A stretch of 64,000 nt of DNA from Phenylobacterium sp. (GTDB taxonomy: Bacteria > Pseudomonadota > Alphaproteobacteria > Caulobacterales > Caulobacteraceae). Below are positions 31,588 through 47,343 of the stretch, one piece after another. Position 1 is the stretch's first letter, and each line of letters opens with the position of its first letter. The stretch lies in contig NZ_JAUSBZ010000100.1 of NCBI RefSeq assembly GCF_030651755.1, positions 1 to 64,000 on the forward strand, written 5' to 3'. Below the pieces are notes generated by a model. That model saw nothing but the letters and a program-made list of their open reading frames with translations. It made no database searches and had not been told where the DNA came from. A program made the position numbers and the translations under genes.

Positions 31588-31724
31588 TGCTGTCTCCTCC
31601 TGTGGCCAAACGAGGGGCCTGCCCCCGATGTTCCAGTCCGTCAGCCGGTCTCGCGGCACAATGGGGCCAAAGCTTGACCCGCCGCCCCTTGGCGGACCGG
31701 TCGGTGCGGACTAGAGTTCTTTCG

Positions 31725-31813
31725 TCCTCGGGGGGCCGCGCTTGGGCGGCTGAGAGGCGGGGGAGCCCGCGACCCGTTGAACCTGATCCGGGTCATGCCG
31801 GCGAAGGGAACGG
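31725..31813 (+). ncRNA. TPP riboswitch (THI element)
   Basis: Contains the conserved thiamin pyrophosphate aptamer blocks in order: GGGGG..., CTGAGA in 'GGCGGCTGAGAGGCGG', 'GAACCTGATCCGGGTCATGCCGGCGAAGGGAA'. It ends 8 bp before the start codon of the next gene, so ligand binding probably blocks translation initiation by occluding the GGAG site there. It should turn off the membrane-protein/thiC operon when TPP is abundant. Confidence 0.95.
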
Positions 31814-31821
31814 AGAGCGCC

Positions 31822-34097
<2,276 letters not shown>

Positions 34098-40633: not shown

Positions 40634-40650
40634 ATATGTTATAACGTTAC
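40634..40650. promoter_or_regulatory. Zur-like operator upstream of the TonB/CobN operon
   Basis: ATATGTTATAACGTTAC has the central palindrome GTTATAAC that forms the core of known proteobacterial Zur sites of the type TGTTATAACATAAC. It lies 31 bp upstream of the GTG start of the receptor gene, within 20 bp downstream of a TTGACT hexamer at 40623-40628. Zinc-dependent repression is the inferred role. Confidence 0.55.
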
Positions 40651-40651
40651 A

Positions 40652-40674
40652 CCTCCCGCGTTCTTTGTGGGAGG
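40652..40674 (+). promoter_or_regulatory. hairpin that pairs the Shine-Dalgarno of the receptor gene
   Basis: CCTCCC-N11-GGGAGG can form a 6-bp perfect stem. The 3' arm GGGAGG is the ribosome-binding site (6 bp before the GTG at 40681), so the 5' arm would act as an anti-Shine-Dalgarno in the mRNA leader. No T-run follows, so it is not a terminator. Confidence 0.6.
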
Positions 40675-40680
40675 CGTTCT

Positions 40681-42636
40681 GTGTCGCTGTCTATTGCTTC
40701 GTCCCGTTCCTGGGTTCCGTCCCGTCGCGCCGCTCTGTTGGCCAGCCTCGCCTGGCTGATCCCCCTGGCGCCGGCCGTCGCTGACGACGCCACCGACCTT
40801 GCCCAGGTGGTGGTCACCCCCATGGCCGGTCCCCAGGCCCTGCGAGACGCGCCGGCCACCATCTCGGTGGTGAGCCGCGCGGAGCTGGAGGCGCGCCCCA
40901 TCGCGGATCTCAGTGACGCCCTGCGCGATGAGCCCGGGGTCAACATCACCGGGATCGGCATGACCCGGCGGGGAATCAGCCTGCGGGGCATGCCGGTGGA
41001 GCATACGCTGGTCCTGGTGGACGGACGACGGATCAGCGCTGTCGGCGGCCTGGTGGCCCATGCGGACTATGACCTCGCCTGGACGCCGGTGGAGGCCATT
41101 GAGCGGATTGAGGTCGTGCGCGGCCCCATGTCCTCCCTTTACGGCGCCGACGCCCTGGGCGGGGTGGTCAACATCATCACCCGCAGCGCCACAGACGCCT
41201 GGGTGCGCAGCGCGACGCTGAACGGCTCTGTCCCCGAGCGGGGGGCCGGGCGCAGCTATCAGATGGGCGCCTATGCCGGCGGCCCCCTGGTGGAGGGCGT
41301 GCTAGGTTTGAGCCTCTACGCCGACTCCACTGGACGGGACCCCACCTATCAGGAGGCCGATCCCCGGCAGGCCGAACTGGAAGGCCGCCGGGCGCTGAAC
41401 GCCTCGGCCACCCTCAGCTGGACGCCGGATGACTCCCAGCGGATCGACCTGACCTACGGGGCCGGAACCGACTTCCGCTATCGGGATACGGTCACCACCG
41501 GAACGGCGCCGGTCTATTACCGATTCTCCGACGACATCACCCGCCAGCAGATCTCCGCCAGTCACCGGGGCGACTTCAGCTTTGGCCAGACCCTGGCGCG
41601 GGCCTATCGCAGCGAGGTTGAGCGGGTGAACATCCGCTCGCGGAACCAGACCCCCAGCGGCACGGTGCGCATCGTGGAATCTGTGGTCGATGGCCATGTA
41701 AGCACGACGTGGGGCGCCCATCAGTTGAGCGCCGGCGGCGAGGCCCGCCGCCAGGAGCTGCGCAATCCGGCCGTGAACGCCCAGGGCCGCAGCGAAGCCG
41801 ACCAGTACGGCCTCTTCATCCAGGACGCCTGGAGCATCACCGAGCAGTGGTCCCTGGTGGGCGGCGCGCGCTTTGACCATCACGACACCTATGACTGGCA
41901 GACCAGCCCGCGCCTCTACACGGTGTTTCACCTCAATGAGCGCCTGACCCTGAAGGGCGGGATCGGTCGCGGGTTCAAGGCGCCCAGCCTGACCCAGCTG
42001 TCACCCGACTATCAGGTCGTGGCCGCCGGTGGCCGGTTCACGGTCTTCGGCAATCCGGACCTCAAGCCCGAGATCGGCACGACCTATGAGGCCAGCGCCG
42101 ACTATGCGGGCGAGGGCTGGTCGGCGCGTCTGGGGGTCTTCCAGAACGATCTTGAGGATCTGGTGGAGACCCAGTGTGTCCGACTCTGCGGCATCCGCGG
42201 CCGCGAGGTGCGCGTCTATGGCAATGTCGCCGAGGCCCGAATCCGCGGGCTGGAGCTCGGCGGGGATGTGAACCTTCCGGCCCAACTCAACCTGTCCGCC
42301 AATCTCACCCGCATGGAGACGGAGAACCGGCTGACCGGCCAGGACTTGCTGGAGCGCCCGAAGACCCGCGCCAACGCCACCCTGCGCTGGCGGCCGACCC
42401 CGGGGCTGAGCGCCCAGTTGCGGGGGCAATATGTGGGCGAGCAGACTGTCAGCACCGGCCGCCTGCCCGACTATAGCCTGTGGTCCCTGGAGGCGAGCCA
42501 GCGTCTGTTCGAGGGGGTGACCCTGCGGGTGGGCGTGGAAAACCTCACCGACCAGCGGCTGGCGGAGAAGTCTGGCTCCTTCACCTATGCGGAGCCCGGC
42601 CGCCTCTATCACCTTGGCTTCAATCTGAGCTTCTAG
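40681..42636 (+). CDS. TonB-dependent receptor of a CobN-linked metal/metallophore uptake operon
   Basis: Outer-membrane receptor of 651 residues, in the size class of BtuB/CirA. The start is GTG; the signal peptide (SRRAALLASLAWLIPLAPAVADD) is followed by the TonB box 'LAQVVVTPMAG', plug blocks 'PIADLSDALRDEPGVNITGIG', 'TLVLVDGRRISAVGG' and 'ERIEVVRGPMSSLYGADALGGVVNIIT', and a barrel ending 'GRLYHLGFNLSF' with the terminal Phe. A Cys pair in a late extracellular loop (TQCVRLCG) might touch a metal. The stop is followed without any gap by the GTG of the CobN-like gene. A Zur-like palindrome and an SD-masking hairpin precede it, and no cobalamin riboswitch is present, which argues against vitamin B12 as ligand. 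Confidence 0.9.
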   Translation: MSLSIASSRSWVPSRRAALLASLAWLIPLAPAVADDATDLAQVVVTPMAGPQALRDAPATISVVSRAELEARPIADLSDALRDEPGVNITGIGMTRRGISLRGMPVEHTLVLVDGRRISAVGGLVAHADYDLAWTPVEAIERIEVVRGPMSSLYGADALGGVVNIITRSATDAWVRSATLNGSVPERGAGRSYQMGAYAGGPLVEGVLGLSLYADSTGRDPTYQEADPRQAELEGRRALNASATLSWTPDDSQRIDLTYGAGTDFRYRDTVTTGTAPVYYRFSDDITRQQISASHRGDFSFGQTLARAYRSEVERVNIRSRNQTPSGTVRIVESVVDGHVSTTWGAHQLSAGGEARRQELRNPAVNAQGRSEADQYGLFIQDAWSITEQWSLVGGARFDHHDTYDWQTSPRLYTVFHLNERLTLKGGIGRGFKAPSLTQLSPDYQVVAAGGRFTVFGNPDLKPEIGTTYEASADYAGEGWSARLGVFQNDLEDLVETQCVRLCGIRGREVRVYGNVAEARIRGLELGGDVNLPAQLNLSANLTRMETENRLTGQDLLERPKTRANATLRWRPTPGLSAQLRGQYVGEQTVSTGRLPDYSLWSLEASQRLFEGVTLRVGVENLTDQRLAEKSGSFTYAEPGRLYHLGFNLSF

Positions 42637-45600
42637 GTGCGGCGCGCACGCCTTTGGCTCGCGGGGCTCAGCCTCTGGCTGGCGGCGGTCCTGGGGCCGC
42701 CGGCCTTGGCCGCGACCAACGACGATGGCCCGTTGATGCGGGTCATCACCACCGACTTCGTTCTGCCGGGCAAGATTGAGCGCCTGCGGAACCTGGCCGA
42801 GGCTGAGGGCCTGGGCCTGGATGGAGTCTGGGTCGAAACCGATGAGCGGCCGGCCGAGGCCTGGTTCGACGGGGCCGATCTGATCCTGATCGACACGCCG
42901 CGGGCCAATGACCTGGCCAAGGTCATGGGCCGATTGGAGGGGGGGCTGGAGGACGCTCCGGTTCCCTGGCTGCGGGTCGGCGGCGGTCCCCCGGCCTTCG
43001 GCGGCGGACTGCGGCCCGAGGCGGCGGCCCGGCTGAGCGCCTATTACGCCAATGGCGGGGCGGCCAATCATCAGGCCCTGTTCGCCTATGCGGCCGCTAT
43101 GATCTCCGGCGCGGATCTGAGCGGATTTCCCGCGCCGCAGGCCCTGCCGGCCAGCGGGATTTACCACCCGGACGCCGCCAGGCCGTTCGCCGCGGTGGCG
43201 GACTATCTCGCCTGGGGCCAGGGCCGCTGGGCGGCGGACGCCCCGCGCCTGGGGATCATCACCTATGGCGGCGCCATTTCCAGCGGCGAGACGGCCCTGC
43301 TGGACGCCCTGGCCCGCAGCGCCGAGGCCAGGGGGGTTGCTCCGGTGGTCTTCTGGTTCGAGGCTGCTCAGGCCGACGCCATCTCCCAGATCGCCGCTCC
43401 GGCCGGCCTCGACGTGCTGGTCAATCTGCAGCACCTGCAGAACGGCGGCGCGCGCAAGGCCGAGTTCGAGGCCCTGGGCCTGCCGGTCCTGTCGGGCTTC
43501 GTCTACCGGGAGGGCGACCTCGCCGCCTGGCGGGCCTCGCCCACCGGCCTGGCGACCCAGTCCACCGCGGTTCTGCTCGCCACGCCGGAGGCCTGGGGGG
43601 TGAGCGACCCCATGGTGCTGGCGACGGTGGATCGGGGGGAGACGCGGCCGATCCCGGCCCAGGTGGACGCCCTGATCGCCAAGGCCGCCCGGCTGGGCGC
43701 CTTGCGGAACAAGGCCAATGCCGACAAGCGGCTGACCCTGATGTTCTGGAACCATCCCGGGGGCGAGAAGAATCTGGGGGCGTCGAATCTCAATGTGCCG
43801 CGCAGCCTTGAGGCCTTGAGCGCCCGACTGGCGGCCGAGGGCTATGACGTGCCGCCGACCGAGGAGCAGGCCCTGATCAGCGGGGCGCAGGCCCTGCTCG
43901 GGGGCTACTACCGGCCAGAAACCCTGGATGACCTTCTGGCCCGGGACCTGGCCGCCACCCTGCCGGTGGCCGCCTACCGAGCCTGGCTCGACGCCCAGGC
44001 CCCGGAGATCGGCGCGGCGGTCCGCCAGCGCTGGGGCGCGCCTGAAGACCACTGGGCGGTGCGCCGCGTGGCGGGCGAACCCCACTTCGTCATTCCCCGG
44101 CTGAGCCTGGGCAAGCTGACCCTGATGCCCCAGCCCCCCCGGGCCGACCGGCCAGGGGAGTCCTATCACGACACCAAGGTCCCGCCGGGCCACCTCTATC
44201 TGGCAGCCTATCTGCTGATGCGGGAGCCGCTGGCCAGCGACGCCCTGATCCACTTCGGCACCCACGGGACCCAGGAATGGACCCCGGGCAAGGATCGCGG
44301 CCTGTCGGTGGAGGACTATCCCTTCCTCACGGTCGGGGACGTTCCGGTCTTCTATCCCTACATCCAGGACAATGTGGGCGAGGCCATCCAGGCCCGCCGG
44401 CGCGGTCGGGCGGTCACCATCAGCCACCAGACCCCGCCCTTCGCCCCGGCCGGCCTCTATGACGAACTGCGCGACGTCCACGCCCTGGTGCACGAGTACG
44501 GGCAGCTGGAGGATGGGCCGGTGCGCCAGCGCACCGCCGCGCAGATCGCGGAGCTGACCGTCCGCGAGGGCATCGCCCAGGACATCGGCTGGGACGGTGG
44601 CCGCGTGGCGGCTGATTTTCCCGACTACATGATCGAGCTGCACGACCATCTGCACGCCCTCGCCGCGTCCGTGACGCCGCTGGGCCTGCATACCTTTGGC
44701 GAGCCGGCGGCGCCGGAACAGCGCCTGCTGACGGTGATGCAGCAACTGGGGCGGCCCTATTACCAGCAGCTTGGCCTCGACGCCGACGAGGTGTTCGCCG
44801 AGGACGCCGAGCAGATCCGCCAGAGCGAACCCTATCTCCTGCTCCAGCGGCAGCTGCGGGAGGGGGAGCCCCCTGAGGCCGTGGCTGACGAGGCTCTGCG
44901 CGCCCTCCTGGCGCGGGCCGCCGAACTGGATCGCCACCTGGCCGAGACCGGGGAGATGGAAGCCCTGCTGGCCGGCCTTGCGGGCGGCTTCATCGCCGCG
45001 GGGCCGGGCGGCGACCCGGTGCGCAATCCCGACGTGCCGAGCGGCCGCAACCTGTTCAGCTTCGAGCCTGACAAGCTCCCCACCCTGGCGGCCTATATCG
45101 CCGGCGGCGAGGCCTTCGACCGCCTGCAGGCCGCCTATGTGGACCAGCATGGCGAGCCGCCGCGCAAACTCGCCTTCACCCTCTGGTCTGGGGAGGCGGT
45201 GAGAACGCTGGGGGTGGTGGAGAGCCAGGCCCTGCACGCGCTTGGCCTGCGTCCCGTCTGGGACCAGGGGGGACGGGTGGTGGACCTGGAGATCGTCCCG
45301 GCCGCCGAGCTGGGACGCCCGCGGGTGGATGTGGTCTTCCAGATCACCAGCGTCTATCGCGACCAGTTCGACGGATTCATGCGGCTGCTGGGCGGGGCGC
45401 TGACCCGGCTGGCCGCCCTTGAGGAGGCCGGCAACACCATCGCCGCCAACAGCGCCAAGGTGGAGGCCCAGCTGATCGCCGCGGGCCAGCCGGCCGATCA
45501 GGCCAGGCGGCTGTCGGCCATCCGCCTCTTCAGCAACGCCCCTGGCGACTATGGCAGCGGGGTTCCGGCCGCCGTGCTGGACTCCACGGCCTGGGAGTCT

Positions 45601-46581
45601 GACGGCGAGGTGGCTGATCGGTTCCTCTCGCGCCTGCAGTACGCCTATGGGGCTGAGGCCTGGGGGGAGACGGTCGAGGGGACCAACCTCTTCGCCGCCC
45701 AGCTCAGCGGGGTCCAGGCCGCGTTGCTGTCGCGCTCGTCCAACCTGCACGGCGTGCTATCGACCGACCATCCGTTCGAATATCTGGGCGGCCTGTCCAT
45801 GGCGATCCGCAAGCTGGATGGGGCCAGCCCCGACCTGTTCATCACCGACGCCCGGGGCGCGACCCCGCGGGTGCGAACCGCCGCCTCGGTCCTCTCCGAC
45901 GAACTGCGCAGCCGCTATCTGAACCCCCAGTGGATCACCGCCATGCAGGGAGAGGGCTATGCCGGGACCCTGGAGATCCTCGACGTCACCAACAATCTGT
46001 TCGGCTGGCAGGTGACCGATCCGGCCATGGTCCGCCCCGACCAGTGGCAGGCCATGCACGAGACCTTCGTCATGGATCGGCGGAAATTGGGGCTGAACGA
46101 CTGGTTTGAGGCCCATAATCCCACCGCCCAGGCCCAATTGATCGAGCGGCTGACCGAGACCATCCGCAAGGGCTATTGGACCCCTGACGCCGAAACCCTG
46201 GCCGAGCTCTCCAAGCGTTGGTCAGAGCTGACCAAGGCCGGGGCCATGGCCGGCGAGGCGGCCACCACCGCCTTGCTGAGCAGCGGCTTTGGCCTGTCGG
46301 CGCAGGCCCCCGTGGCGGGCGCCGCCGCCCCCCAGGGCCAAGCGTCCCCGGGCGAGGCCTCGCCGCCGGAGCCCGCCGCGGAGGTCGCGCCTGCGCCGCC
46401 CCCCGTCGTTCGGGGTCAGGTGCTGGAGAAGGTGCAGCCGCCGGCGCCCCCGACCCCCCTGTCCCACTGGCGGGCCCTGCTGGGCCTCGTCGCCCTACTG
46501 ACCTTCACCCTGATCGGGGCGGCCGGTCAGGCCCAGTCCCGTCCGCGTTCCTTCCTGGAGTTGTCCCATGCACGGCCTTGA
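42637..46581 (+). CDS. CobN-like protein with signal peptide and C-terminal membrane anchor
   Basis: A 1314-residue homologue of the large subunit of cobaltochelatase and magnesium chelatase. CobN hallmarks are 'ALIHFGTHGTQEWTPGKDRGL' near residue 540, 'FYPYIQDNVGEAIQARRRGR', 'VPRSLEALSARLAAEGYDVPP' and 'ITSVYRDQFDGFMRLL', so the fold seems complete. Unlike cytoplasmic CobN it starts with a signal peptide (VRRARLWLAGLSLWLAAVLGPPALA) and ends with a Pro/Ala-rich linker (about residues 1220-1275) and one helix 'HWRALLGLVALLTFTLIGAAG'. The chelatase domain should therefore face the periplasm, tied to the inner membrane. It starts directly after the receptor stop (TAGGTG) and overlaps the ExbB-like gene by 14 bp. 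There is no cobS, cobT or other cob gene nearby. It probably handles a metal or a metallated tetrapyrrole or metallophore after TonB-dependent entry. Confidence 0.9.
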   Translation: MRRARLWLAGLSLWLAAVLGPPALAATNDDGPLMRVITTDFVLPGKIERLRNLAEAEGLGLDGVWVETDERPAEAWFDGADLILIDTPRANDLAKVMGRLEGGLEDAPVPWLRVGGGPPAFGGGLRPEAAARLSAYYANGGAANHQALFAYAAAMISGADLSGFPAPQALPASGIYHPDAARPFAAVADYLAWGQGRWAADAPRLGIITYGGAISSGETALLDALARSAEARGVAPVVFWFEAAQADAISQIAAPAGLDVLVNLQHLQNGGARKAEFEALGLPVLSGFVYREGDLAAWRASPTGLATQSTAVLLATPEAWGVSDPMVLATVDRGETRPIPAQVDALIAKAARLGALRNKANADKRLTLMFWNHPGGEKNLGASNLNVPRSLEALSARLAAEGYDVPPTEEQALISGAQALLGGYYRPETLDDLLARDLAATLPVAAYRAWLDAQAPEIGAAVRQRWGAPEDHWAVRRVAGEPHFVIPRLSLGKLTLMPQPPRADRPGESYHDTKVPPGHLYLAAYLLMREPLASDALIHFGTHGTQEWTPGKDRGLSVEDYPFLTVGDVPVFYPYIQDNVGEAIQARRRGRAVTISHQTPPFAPAGLYDELRDVHALVHEYGQLEDGPVRQRTAAQIAELTVREGIAQDIGWDGGRVAADFPDYMIELHDHLHALAASVTPLGLHTFGEPAAPEQRLLTVMQQLGRPYYQQLGLDADEVFAEDAEQIRQSEPYLLLQRQLREGEPPEAVADEALRALLARAAELDRHLAETGEMEALLAGLAGGFIAAGPGGDPVRNPDVPSGRNLFSFEPDKLPTLAAYIAGGEAFDRLQAAYVDQHGEPPRKLAFTLWSGEAVRTLGVVESQALHALGLRPVWDQGGRVVDLEIVPAAELGRPRVDVVFQITSVYRDQFDGFMRLLGGALTRLAALEEAGNTIAANSAKVEAQLIAAGQPADQARRLSAIRLFSNAPGDYGSGVPAAVLDSTAWESDGEVADRFLSRLQYAYGAEAWGETVEGTNLFAAQLSGVQAALLSRSSNLHGVLSTDHPFEYLGGLSMAIRKLDGASPDLFITDARGATPRVRTAASVLSDELRSRYLNPQWITAMQGEGYAGTLEILDVTNNLFGWQVTDPAMVRPDQWQAMHETFVMDRRKLGLNDWFEAHNPTAQAQLIERLTETIRKGYWTPDAETLAELSKRWSELTKAGAMAGEAATTALLSSGFGLSAQAPVAGAAAPQGQASPGEASPPEPAAEVAPAPPPVVRGQVLEKVQPPAPPTPLSHWRALLGLVALLTFTLIGAAGQAQSRPRSFLELSHARP

Positions 46582-47038
46582 GGCTGGTCTGTTCGACCTC
46601 GCCCGACTGTTTCTGCTGCCGGCCCTGGCCCTGATCGTCATCGCCCTGGCCTATGCCTTCATCGCCCTGGGCGCCTTCCTGATGGAGTTCGCCCAGCGGC
46701 GCTCAGGCGCCTACAGCTCCCGCCTCATCGCCCATCAGGCGGCCACGGGCGCGTCGAGCGAGGATCTGGAGCTGTGGATCATGAAGCGCCTGGAATGGCT
46801 GCGGATCACCTCGCGCAGCGCCCCCATGCTGGGCCTGGTGGCGACCATGATCCCCATGGGCCCGGCTCTGCTGGCGCTTGGCGAAGGCGACGGGCGAACC
46901 ATTGGCGAGAACCTGGTGGTGGCCTTTTCCGGCGTGGTCCTGGCCCTGATCGCCGCCAGCATCACCCATGTCATCCTGACCATCCGGCGGCGCTGGTTGC
47001 TGGAGGAGCTGCGCAGCTTCGAACGCGGGGCGGCCTGA
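46568..47038 (+). CDS. MotA/TolQ/ExbB-like proton-channel protein
   Basis: A 156-residue inner-membrane protein with three hydrophobic helices: 'LFLLPALALIVIALAYAFIALGAFLMEF' near the N terminus, then a cytoplasmic segment, and the paired helices 'SAPMLGLVATMIPMGPALLAL' and 'NLVVAFSGVVLALIAASITHVILTI'. The sequence 'RSAPMLGLVATMIPMGPALLALG' corresponds to the TolQ/ExbB 'AP.LGLLGTV.GM...F' signature, and 'GRTIGENLVVAFSGVVLALIAA' to their conserved second block. It is shorter than ExbB (about 240). It overlaps the CobN-like gene by 14 bp and the DUF2149 gene by 3 bp, so the products should be made at a fixed ratio. Confidence 0.88.
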   Translation: MHGLEAGLFDLARLFLLPALALIVIALAYAFIALGAFLMEFAQRRSGAYSSRLIAHQAATGASSEDLELWIMKRLEWLRITSRSAPMLGLVATMIPMGPALLALGEGDGRTIGENLVVAFSGVVLALIAASITHVILTIRRRWLLEELRSFERGAA

Positions 47039-47343
47039 TGCGCTTCCTCGAGGACGATGAGGCCGACGACCCCATCCTGTCGGTGGTCAATCTGATCGAT
47101 GTCTTTGTGGTGGTGATCGCCATCCTGATGATCGTCATCGTCCAGAACCCGCTCAACCCGTTCAACGCCGAGAACGTCATCGTGGTGCAGAACCCAGGCG
47201 CGGCGGACATGACCATGATCATCAAGGAGGGCGAGGAACTGACCCGCTATGAATCCTCCGGCGCCATCGGCGAGGGCCAGGGGGTCAAGGCCGGGATCAC
47301 CTATCGTTTGCCCGACGGCAAGATGGTCTATGTGCCCGAATAG
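47038..47343 (+). CDS. DUF2149 protein, minimal ExbD/TolR-like partner
   Basis: A 101-residue protein that starts at the ATG overlapping the previous stop (TGATG). A short acidic cytoplasmic head (MRFLEDDEADDPI) precedes one transmembrane helix 'LSVVNLIDVFVVVIAILMIVIV', after which a small periplasmic domain with 'EGEELTRYESSGAIGEGQGVKAGITYRLPDGKMVYVPE' follows. This matches DUF2149. In the helix the Asp of 'VNLIDVFVVV' is placed as in the ExbD/TolR 'PLVDVMLVLLI' segment, where it carries protons. With the ExbB-like partner it likely forms a dedicated motor for this system. Last gene of the operon. Confidence 0.88.
   Translation: MRFLEDDEADDPILSVVNLIDVFVVVIAILMIVIVQNPLNPFNAENVIVVQNPGAADMTMIIKEGEELTRYESSGAIGEGQGVKAGITYRLPDGKMVYVPE

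Follow-up and report, generated by a model that had tools for sequence, protein, structure and literature searches.

A Zur-box operon of Phenylobacterium with an exported CobN-like protein and a candidate proton motor for it

A four-gene operon behind a Zur-type box

In a stretch of 64,000 nucleotides from Phenylobacterium sp. (contig NZ_JAUSBZ010000100.1, positions 1 to 64,000; hereafter the window), four forward-strand genes form an operon for a TonB-dependent receptor, a protein related to the cobaltochelatase subunit CobN, an ExbB-like protein and a DUF2149 protein. The CirA-like receptor gene (40681..42636, +) starts at GTG, and its product matches PF00593/PF07715 and carries a TonB-box-like segment, DLAQVVVTPM. 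It is followed by the gene of the CobN-like protein (1314 amino acids; 42637..46581, +; PF02514, 969.6 bits), that of a putative proton-channel subunit of the ExbB/TolQ/MotA type (156 amino acids; 46568..47038, +), whose PF01618 match of 23.1 bits is weak and barely above the cut-off of 22.9, and that of the DUF2149 protein (101 amino acids; 47038..47343, +; PF09919, 93.6 bits). These family matches agree with a sequence-only reading made before this analysis, which had recognised a receptor, a CobN homologue and an ExbB/ExbD-like pair in four tightly coupled genes; the order, the 0-bp gap between receptor and CobN-like genes and the 14-bp overlap of the latter with the ExbB-like gene are as it described them, but the ExbB-like and DUF2149 genes overlap by 1 bp (TGATG) and not by 3.

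A Zur-box-like palindrome, ATGTTATAACGTTACAC, lies 29 bp upstream of the receptor start codon (40636..40652, no strand assigned), and its pattern had 0 matches in 100 shuffled windows. On a matrix built from five repressor-type Zur sites of Caulobacter crescentus (PMC4176598) it scored 14.3, the top of the window, the next unrelated place reaching 9.1, and a Zur-like site is kept before the operon in two relatives from Phenylobacterium (L080 and L038). Since no other place in the window scores as well and the relatives keep the site, control of the operon by zinc starvation through Zur is well supported, the boxes being sequence matches. Genome-wide, TGTTATNNNATAACA with at most 2 mismatches occurs at 14 places, compared with 1 for the reversed pattern; some of these boxes stand ahead of genes for a Fur-family protein, two COG0523 GTPases, two TonB receptors and an exported methyltransferase. 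TGTTATN6TAACA, a pattern whose spacing was wrong, was no more frequent than its control and gave way to TGTTATNNNATAACA. The link to zinc starvation had been proposed from the PA1922-PA1925 genes of Pseudomonas aeruginosa, which have a Zur site and rise 45- to 147-fold in a delta-znuA strain (PMC4542158), and this part of the proposal is upheld by the boxes described here.

The CobN-like protein and its HmuS-type site

A Sec signal peptide is predicted at residues 1-25 of the CobN-like protein (...PPALA/A; 42637..42711, +), and hydrophobic N-termini are present in the other full-length CobN-like proteins of the set, one over-long open reading frame excepted. At the other end, sequence and model both predict a transmembrane helix at residues 1277-1300 (46465..46536, +) followed by a short basic tail; such a C-terminal hydrophobic helix is found in 98 of 102 family members, with a basic residue after the helix in all, and is absent from four canonical CobN proteins. 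An AlphaFold model of residues 115-1314 (predicted local distance difference test score, pLDDT, 81) places a globule up to about residue 1215, then a disordered linker and the helix.

The first match among PDB sequences was HmuS (423 bits), the heme de-chelatase by which gut bacteria extract heme iron, from the hmuYRSTUV operon of Bacteroidota (PMC12583661, PDB 9D26), followed by CobN (405 and 348 bits) and then ChlH; the model resembles HmuS and Mycobacterium tuberculosis CobN about equally (template modelling (TM) scores of 0.76 and 0.77). The active site is HmuS-like. His543 in HFGTHG (44263..44265, +) corresponds to His538 of HmuS, which has a catalytic role (PMC12583661), and His1045 and Glu1048 in LSTDHPFEYLGG (45769..45780, +) correspond to HmuS His1209 and Glu1212; compared with LSLDHxxEFMGG of HmuS, LSTDHPFEYLGG keeps the His and the Glu but differs at three further positions, which hold T, Y and L. 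The positions of His1045 and Glu1048 are mostly Asp and Gln in canonical CobN, in the B12-linked protein of Trichlorobacter and in a sister clade that is mostly without Zur boxes. His266 (43432..43434, +) aligns with the heme ligand His254 of HmuS and is kept in 54 of 78 scored relatives, including nearly all of the DH..E clade, although its motif is HLQ and not HGR as in HmuS; the Met79-Gly80 region did not align reliably.

In the tree, proteins of the His type and of the Asp type form two sister clades, HmuS has a clade of its own and canonical CobN is separate again. The approximately unbiased test rejects a tree in which the His/Glu-type proteins and HmuS share one clade (P = 6.75e-7). The distance from HFGTHG to GGDP is 252 residues, compared with 314-501 in HmuS-clade proteins, and this stretch has at most 2 Met per 100 residues compared with up to 25 in the HmuS clade; the Met-rich insertion is missing. 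Since it falls in a separate clade and lacks this insertion, the protein is not an HmuS. Sequence and model together thus support an exported, membrane-tethered class I chelatase or de-chelatase with an HmuS-like site, in keeping with the exported chelatase-like protein of the sequence-only reading. The same reading had called the mechanism of such systems undescribed, which no longer holds because HmuS has been shown to de-metallate heme (PMC12583661). Relative to the CobNST and ChlHID class I chelatases, the fold of the catalytic subunit is shared (PF02514; TM 0.68-0.77), whereas the window protein is predicted to be periplasmic, has no co-encoded AAA+ partner and carries the His/Glu site.

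A near-invariable core with exchangeable receptors

An alignment of the CobN-like protein was scanned against 85,462 species genomes and the best 80 loci were retained, the closest relative being from Phenylobacterium (87% identity). ExbB-like and DUF2149 genes were both present in 78 of the 80 loci, the 2 exceptions ending at a contig edge, and from the DUF2149 side a CobN-like gene accompanied 31 of 32 loci in the sampled genomes, the exception being contig-truncated. DUF2149 itself is patchy, occurring in 13/299 genomes of the order and 17/399 of the phylum. The four-gene order, too, recurs across Proteobacteria far beyond chance. Given the 78/80 and 31/32 linkage, we describe the CobN-like, ExbB-like and DUF2149 genes as an almost invariable core, recognised here for the first time, around which the receptor and the regulator are swapped (zinc with Zur, a B12 riboswitch, nickel hyp genes, or heme).

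A receptor adjoins the core in most loci, and TonB boxes were found in receptors family-wide, but receptors of the window's clade are 34-89% identical to the window receptor and those of the sister clade 24-44%. Calls based on BLAST overlook distant receptors: at four loci (L083, L090, L120 and L126), all without a Zur box, Pfam recognises a different receptor, invisible to BLAST, immediately before a CobN-like gene of the same kind, and no absence is claimed there. Zur boxes precede 38/57 loci of the His type but only 1/20 of the Asp type, a co-occurrence for which the Fisher P value of 1e-6 is overstated because the two types are sister clades and thus close to a single evolutionary event. 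A search of the mostly non-Zur sister clade for cobalamin riboswitches found none, Trichlorobacter alone having them. The only recurrent candidate for a fifth conserved gene in the flanks was a COG0523-type GTPase, at 6 loci.

Several described gene clusters share this core. The hmu operon likewise combines a receptor (HmuR) with an exported CobN-like protein (HmuS) that has membrane segments at both ends and the HFGTHG and DH..E catalytic residues, and with HmuU and HmuV, annotated as ExbB-family and DUF2149 proteins, respectively (PMC10434189); plasmid records of Bacteroides and Prevotella contain operons of this hmuYRSTUV type. The window operon differs in having neither HmuY nor HmuT, neither the Met-rich insertion nor the HGR motif, and a Zur box in place of iron control. 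By their reported content (receptor, CobN-like, ExbB/D-like and small protein) and Zur control, PA1922-PA1925 resemble it (PMC4542158), and the gene order of the window operon recurs in their relatives from P. delhiensis, P. khazarica and P. fulva; PA1922-PA1925 themselves come from another species, and the PA1923 sequence lies outside the comparison set.

On plasmid pGLOV01 of Trichlorobacter (Geobacter) lovleyi (L072, 1152-11134), the cobN cluster of pGLOV01/pSZ77 (PMC3403914) comprises CobN-like, ExbB-like, DUF2149 and receptor genes as in the window, but it stands behind two tandem cobalamin riboswitches near bzaF, with DUF2162, the Asp/Gln catalytic variant and, beside the DUF2149-type motor, a separate canonical exbB-exbD-tonB set; the T. 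lovleyi genome is without CobS and CobT (PMC3403914). On plasmid pRUNSL01 of Runella slithyformis (L079, 60-13917), a receptor/ExbB/DUF2149/CobN-like cassette and a 'urease accessory' protein lie between hypABF and hypCDE, a placement that points to nickel supply for [NiFe]-hydrogenase.

A candidate motor-driven chelatase and its alternatives

The ExbB-like protein has a pore threonine, T93, in GLVATMIPMG (GLxxT in aligned members), and the DUF2149 protein has one predicted membrane helix with an invariant Asp21 near its start (NLID; NLxD family-wide), with a small putative beta domain after it. In this they resemble the Ton and Tol motors (ExbB-ExbD-TonB and TolQ-TolR-TolA), where a three-helix channel subunit of the ExbB family, carrying a pore Thr, is paired with a single-helix partner bearing a membrane Asp. 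The linker of the CobN-like protein contains a proline-flanked motif, VRGQVLEKV, at a D-box-like position (46408..46434, +). Family comparison revealed [VI]xGxx[LM], usually VxGQV[LM]ExV, in 88 of 102 relatives, compared with 4.1 expected from shuffled linkers, at 13-28 residues before the C-terminal helix in a linker that is otherwise unalignable. It extends to deep branches (VEGFEM in Trichlorobacter, VKGYKM in Runella), HmuS proteins having only a looser version. In TonB, the D-box has prolines on either side, is separated from the helix by 10-15 residues and is the segment that the ExbD dimer captures (PMC10907165, PMC12905483). Helix and motif would thus give the CobN-like protein the layout of a TonB/TolA-type motor client, a membrane helix with a short motif near the membrane, by resemblance and not by homology; unlike Ton and Tol clients, this one would be an enzyme, anchored C-terminally rather than N-terminally.

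With a probability of roughly 45%, we favour the following account as a whole. Under zinc shortage, Zur would leave the site at 40636-40652 and the operon would be expressed; the receptor, energised by TonB/ExbBD encoded elsewhere, would import a chelate with its metal, a zinc tetrapyrrole or similar macrocycle being the likeliest; and in the periplasm the CobN-like protein, whose C-terminal helix anchors it in the inner membrane, would hold the chelate between two catalytic histidines and strip its metal like HmuS, the freed zinc entering through ordinary inner-membrane zinc transporters. The ExbB-like and DUF2149 proteins would act as a proton motor whose client is not the receptor but the CobN-like protein, engaging its helix and the VxGQVLExV motif as ExbB/ExbD engage the TonB helix and D-box, and the proton gradient would take the place of the CobST or ChlID ATPase that powers cytoplasmic class I chelatases. 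Metal removal as opposed to insertion, the nature of the chelate and the coupling of motor to chelatase are the steps that we infer. That a dedicated ExbB/DUF2149 motor has exported CobN-like proteins as its direct clients, through helix and D-box-like motif, in a metal-generic module redeployed with varied receptors and regulators (Zn, heme iron, Ni, corrinoids), is put forward tentatively, at odds somewhat short of even; a literature search found no paper proposing such a motor as driver of a CobN-like chelatase. If the account is true, these proteins are a periplasmic metal-stripping family, represented also in P. aeruginosa, with which starving bacteria mine macrocycles for metals, zinc included. 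Driving a chelatase by a proton motor in place of an AAA+ ATPase would give the ExbB/MotA motor family a new role and account for the HmuU/HmuV-type genes that go with hmuS.

Several observations weigh against this account. The NADH chemistry of HmuS need not carry over to zinc, which is not redox-active, and a literature search for zinc tetrapyrroles or porphyrins, as substrates or linked to Zur, found nothing. Purified HmuS is reported to be active without HmuU and HmuV (PMC12583661), which means that a motor is not needed in every case. When the DUF2149 and ExbD profiles were compared (hhalign), the Asp motif was aligned but the match covered the membrane helix only, at 10% probability, and the low-confidence five-strand model of DUF2149 (pLDDT 66) matched no ExbD structure or other PDB entry; homology to ExbD by profile and fold is unsupported beyond the helix motif, and the periplasmic domain is without a detectable ExbD fold. 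Finally, in Magnetospirillum fulvum (L131, 5163-5858) a tonB gene separates the receptor gene from the CobN-like gene, the sole intra-operon tonB among the 80 loci, which fits a motor serving the receptor.

That the ExbB-like/DUF2149 pair simply energises the operon's own receptor, as PMC12583661 assigns HmuU and HmuV to HmuR, while the CobN-like protein demetallates unaided, is the strongest alternative, although we consider it unlikely. It would suit the M. fulvum operon, the receptors next to most cores and their TonB boxes, and the sequence-only reading had likewise given the receptor its own proton motor; a motor-type pair is indeed present, but its service to the receptor is the weaker half of that idea. 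The operon has no tonB, as is the case in about 75 of the 80 loci (a tonB gene is near just about 5), and canonical ExbD and TonB are encoded elsewhere in the genome; loci with a receptor of another family still pair the motor with the CobN-like gene; T. lovleyi has both kinds of motor in one cluster; and a control search found a DUF2149 match in Methanosarcina acetivorans, an archaeon without an outer membrane.

Two further alternatives concern what the CobN-like protein handles. A zinc-starved cell might import corrinoids or cobalt chelates and strip their cobalt as a zinc substitute, since cobalt rises in P. aeruginosa delta-znuA (PMC4542158) and the related Trichlorobacter cassette is under cobalamin riboswitches, but we consider this improbable: the window's clade has the HmuS-type His/Glu pair in place of the Asp/Gln of most canonical CobN and of the B12-linked protein, and the window is without a cobalamin riboswitch although the genome carries two elsewhere. 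Slightly more doubtful still is a periplasmic carrier or chaperone that hands the intact chelate to an inner-membrane transporter without chemistry, an option proposed for P. gingivalis HmuS (PMC13227078) and compatible with the binding-protein-dependent ATP-binding cassette transporters next to some cassettes; the catalytic His543, His1045 and Glu1048 are kept here, and this operon has no such transporter.

A genuine CobN subunit of B12 synthesis, as proteins of this type are annotated and as NCBIfam names the window protein above its curated cut-off (equivalog NF004644, cobaltochelatase CobN; 1774.7 bits compared with 1248), with a CobS gene in the same genome, is very improbable, because the export signal, the C-terminal anchor, the clade apart from canonical CobN and the Zur box contradict that name and no cob gene is among the scanned neighbours. 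The full-score CobS gene lies on another contig (C141:1103-2071, L179), and Caulobacter vibrioides also matches; a second, cytoplasmic CobN was not found in the genome, and CobT had no search.

The scanned neighbours encode a prolyl oligopeptidase-like hydrolase, a metallo-beta-lactamase/beta-CASP protein, a Usp protein, a hybrid histidine kinase, malate synthase G and two products without a family, and the window's sole riboswitch, for thiamine pyrophosphate (31719-31826, +), has no relation to the operon; the absence of cob genes and of a cobalamin riboswitch nearby had been noted correctly before. The exported S-adenosylmethionine-dependent methyltransferase of this genome (L203, 1554-2252, on contig C160) has its Zur-like box 38 bp upstream, and P. 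aeruginosa PA1921, also annotated as a methyltransferase, has a listed Zur site whose score equals that of PA1922. Six loci (L054, L061, L062, L065, L066 and L068) form a divergent clade with HLGRHSTYEF and LDNNDAFDYLGG, ExbB-like genes and weak DUF2149 matches, in which the linker motif differs and an adjoining receptor was often undetected. Apparent remnants occur on a plasmid of Paracoccus alcaliphilus (L075, 3629-4555) and in Azospirillum TSH58 (L076), where a receptor fragment lies right beside a DUF2149 gene or fragment and the CobN-like gene has been lost.

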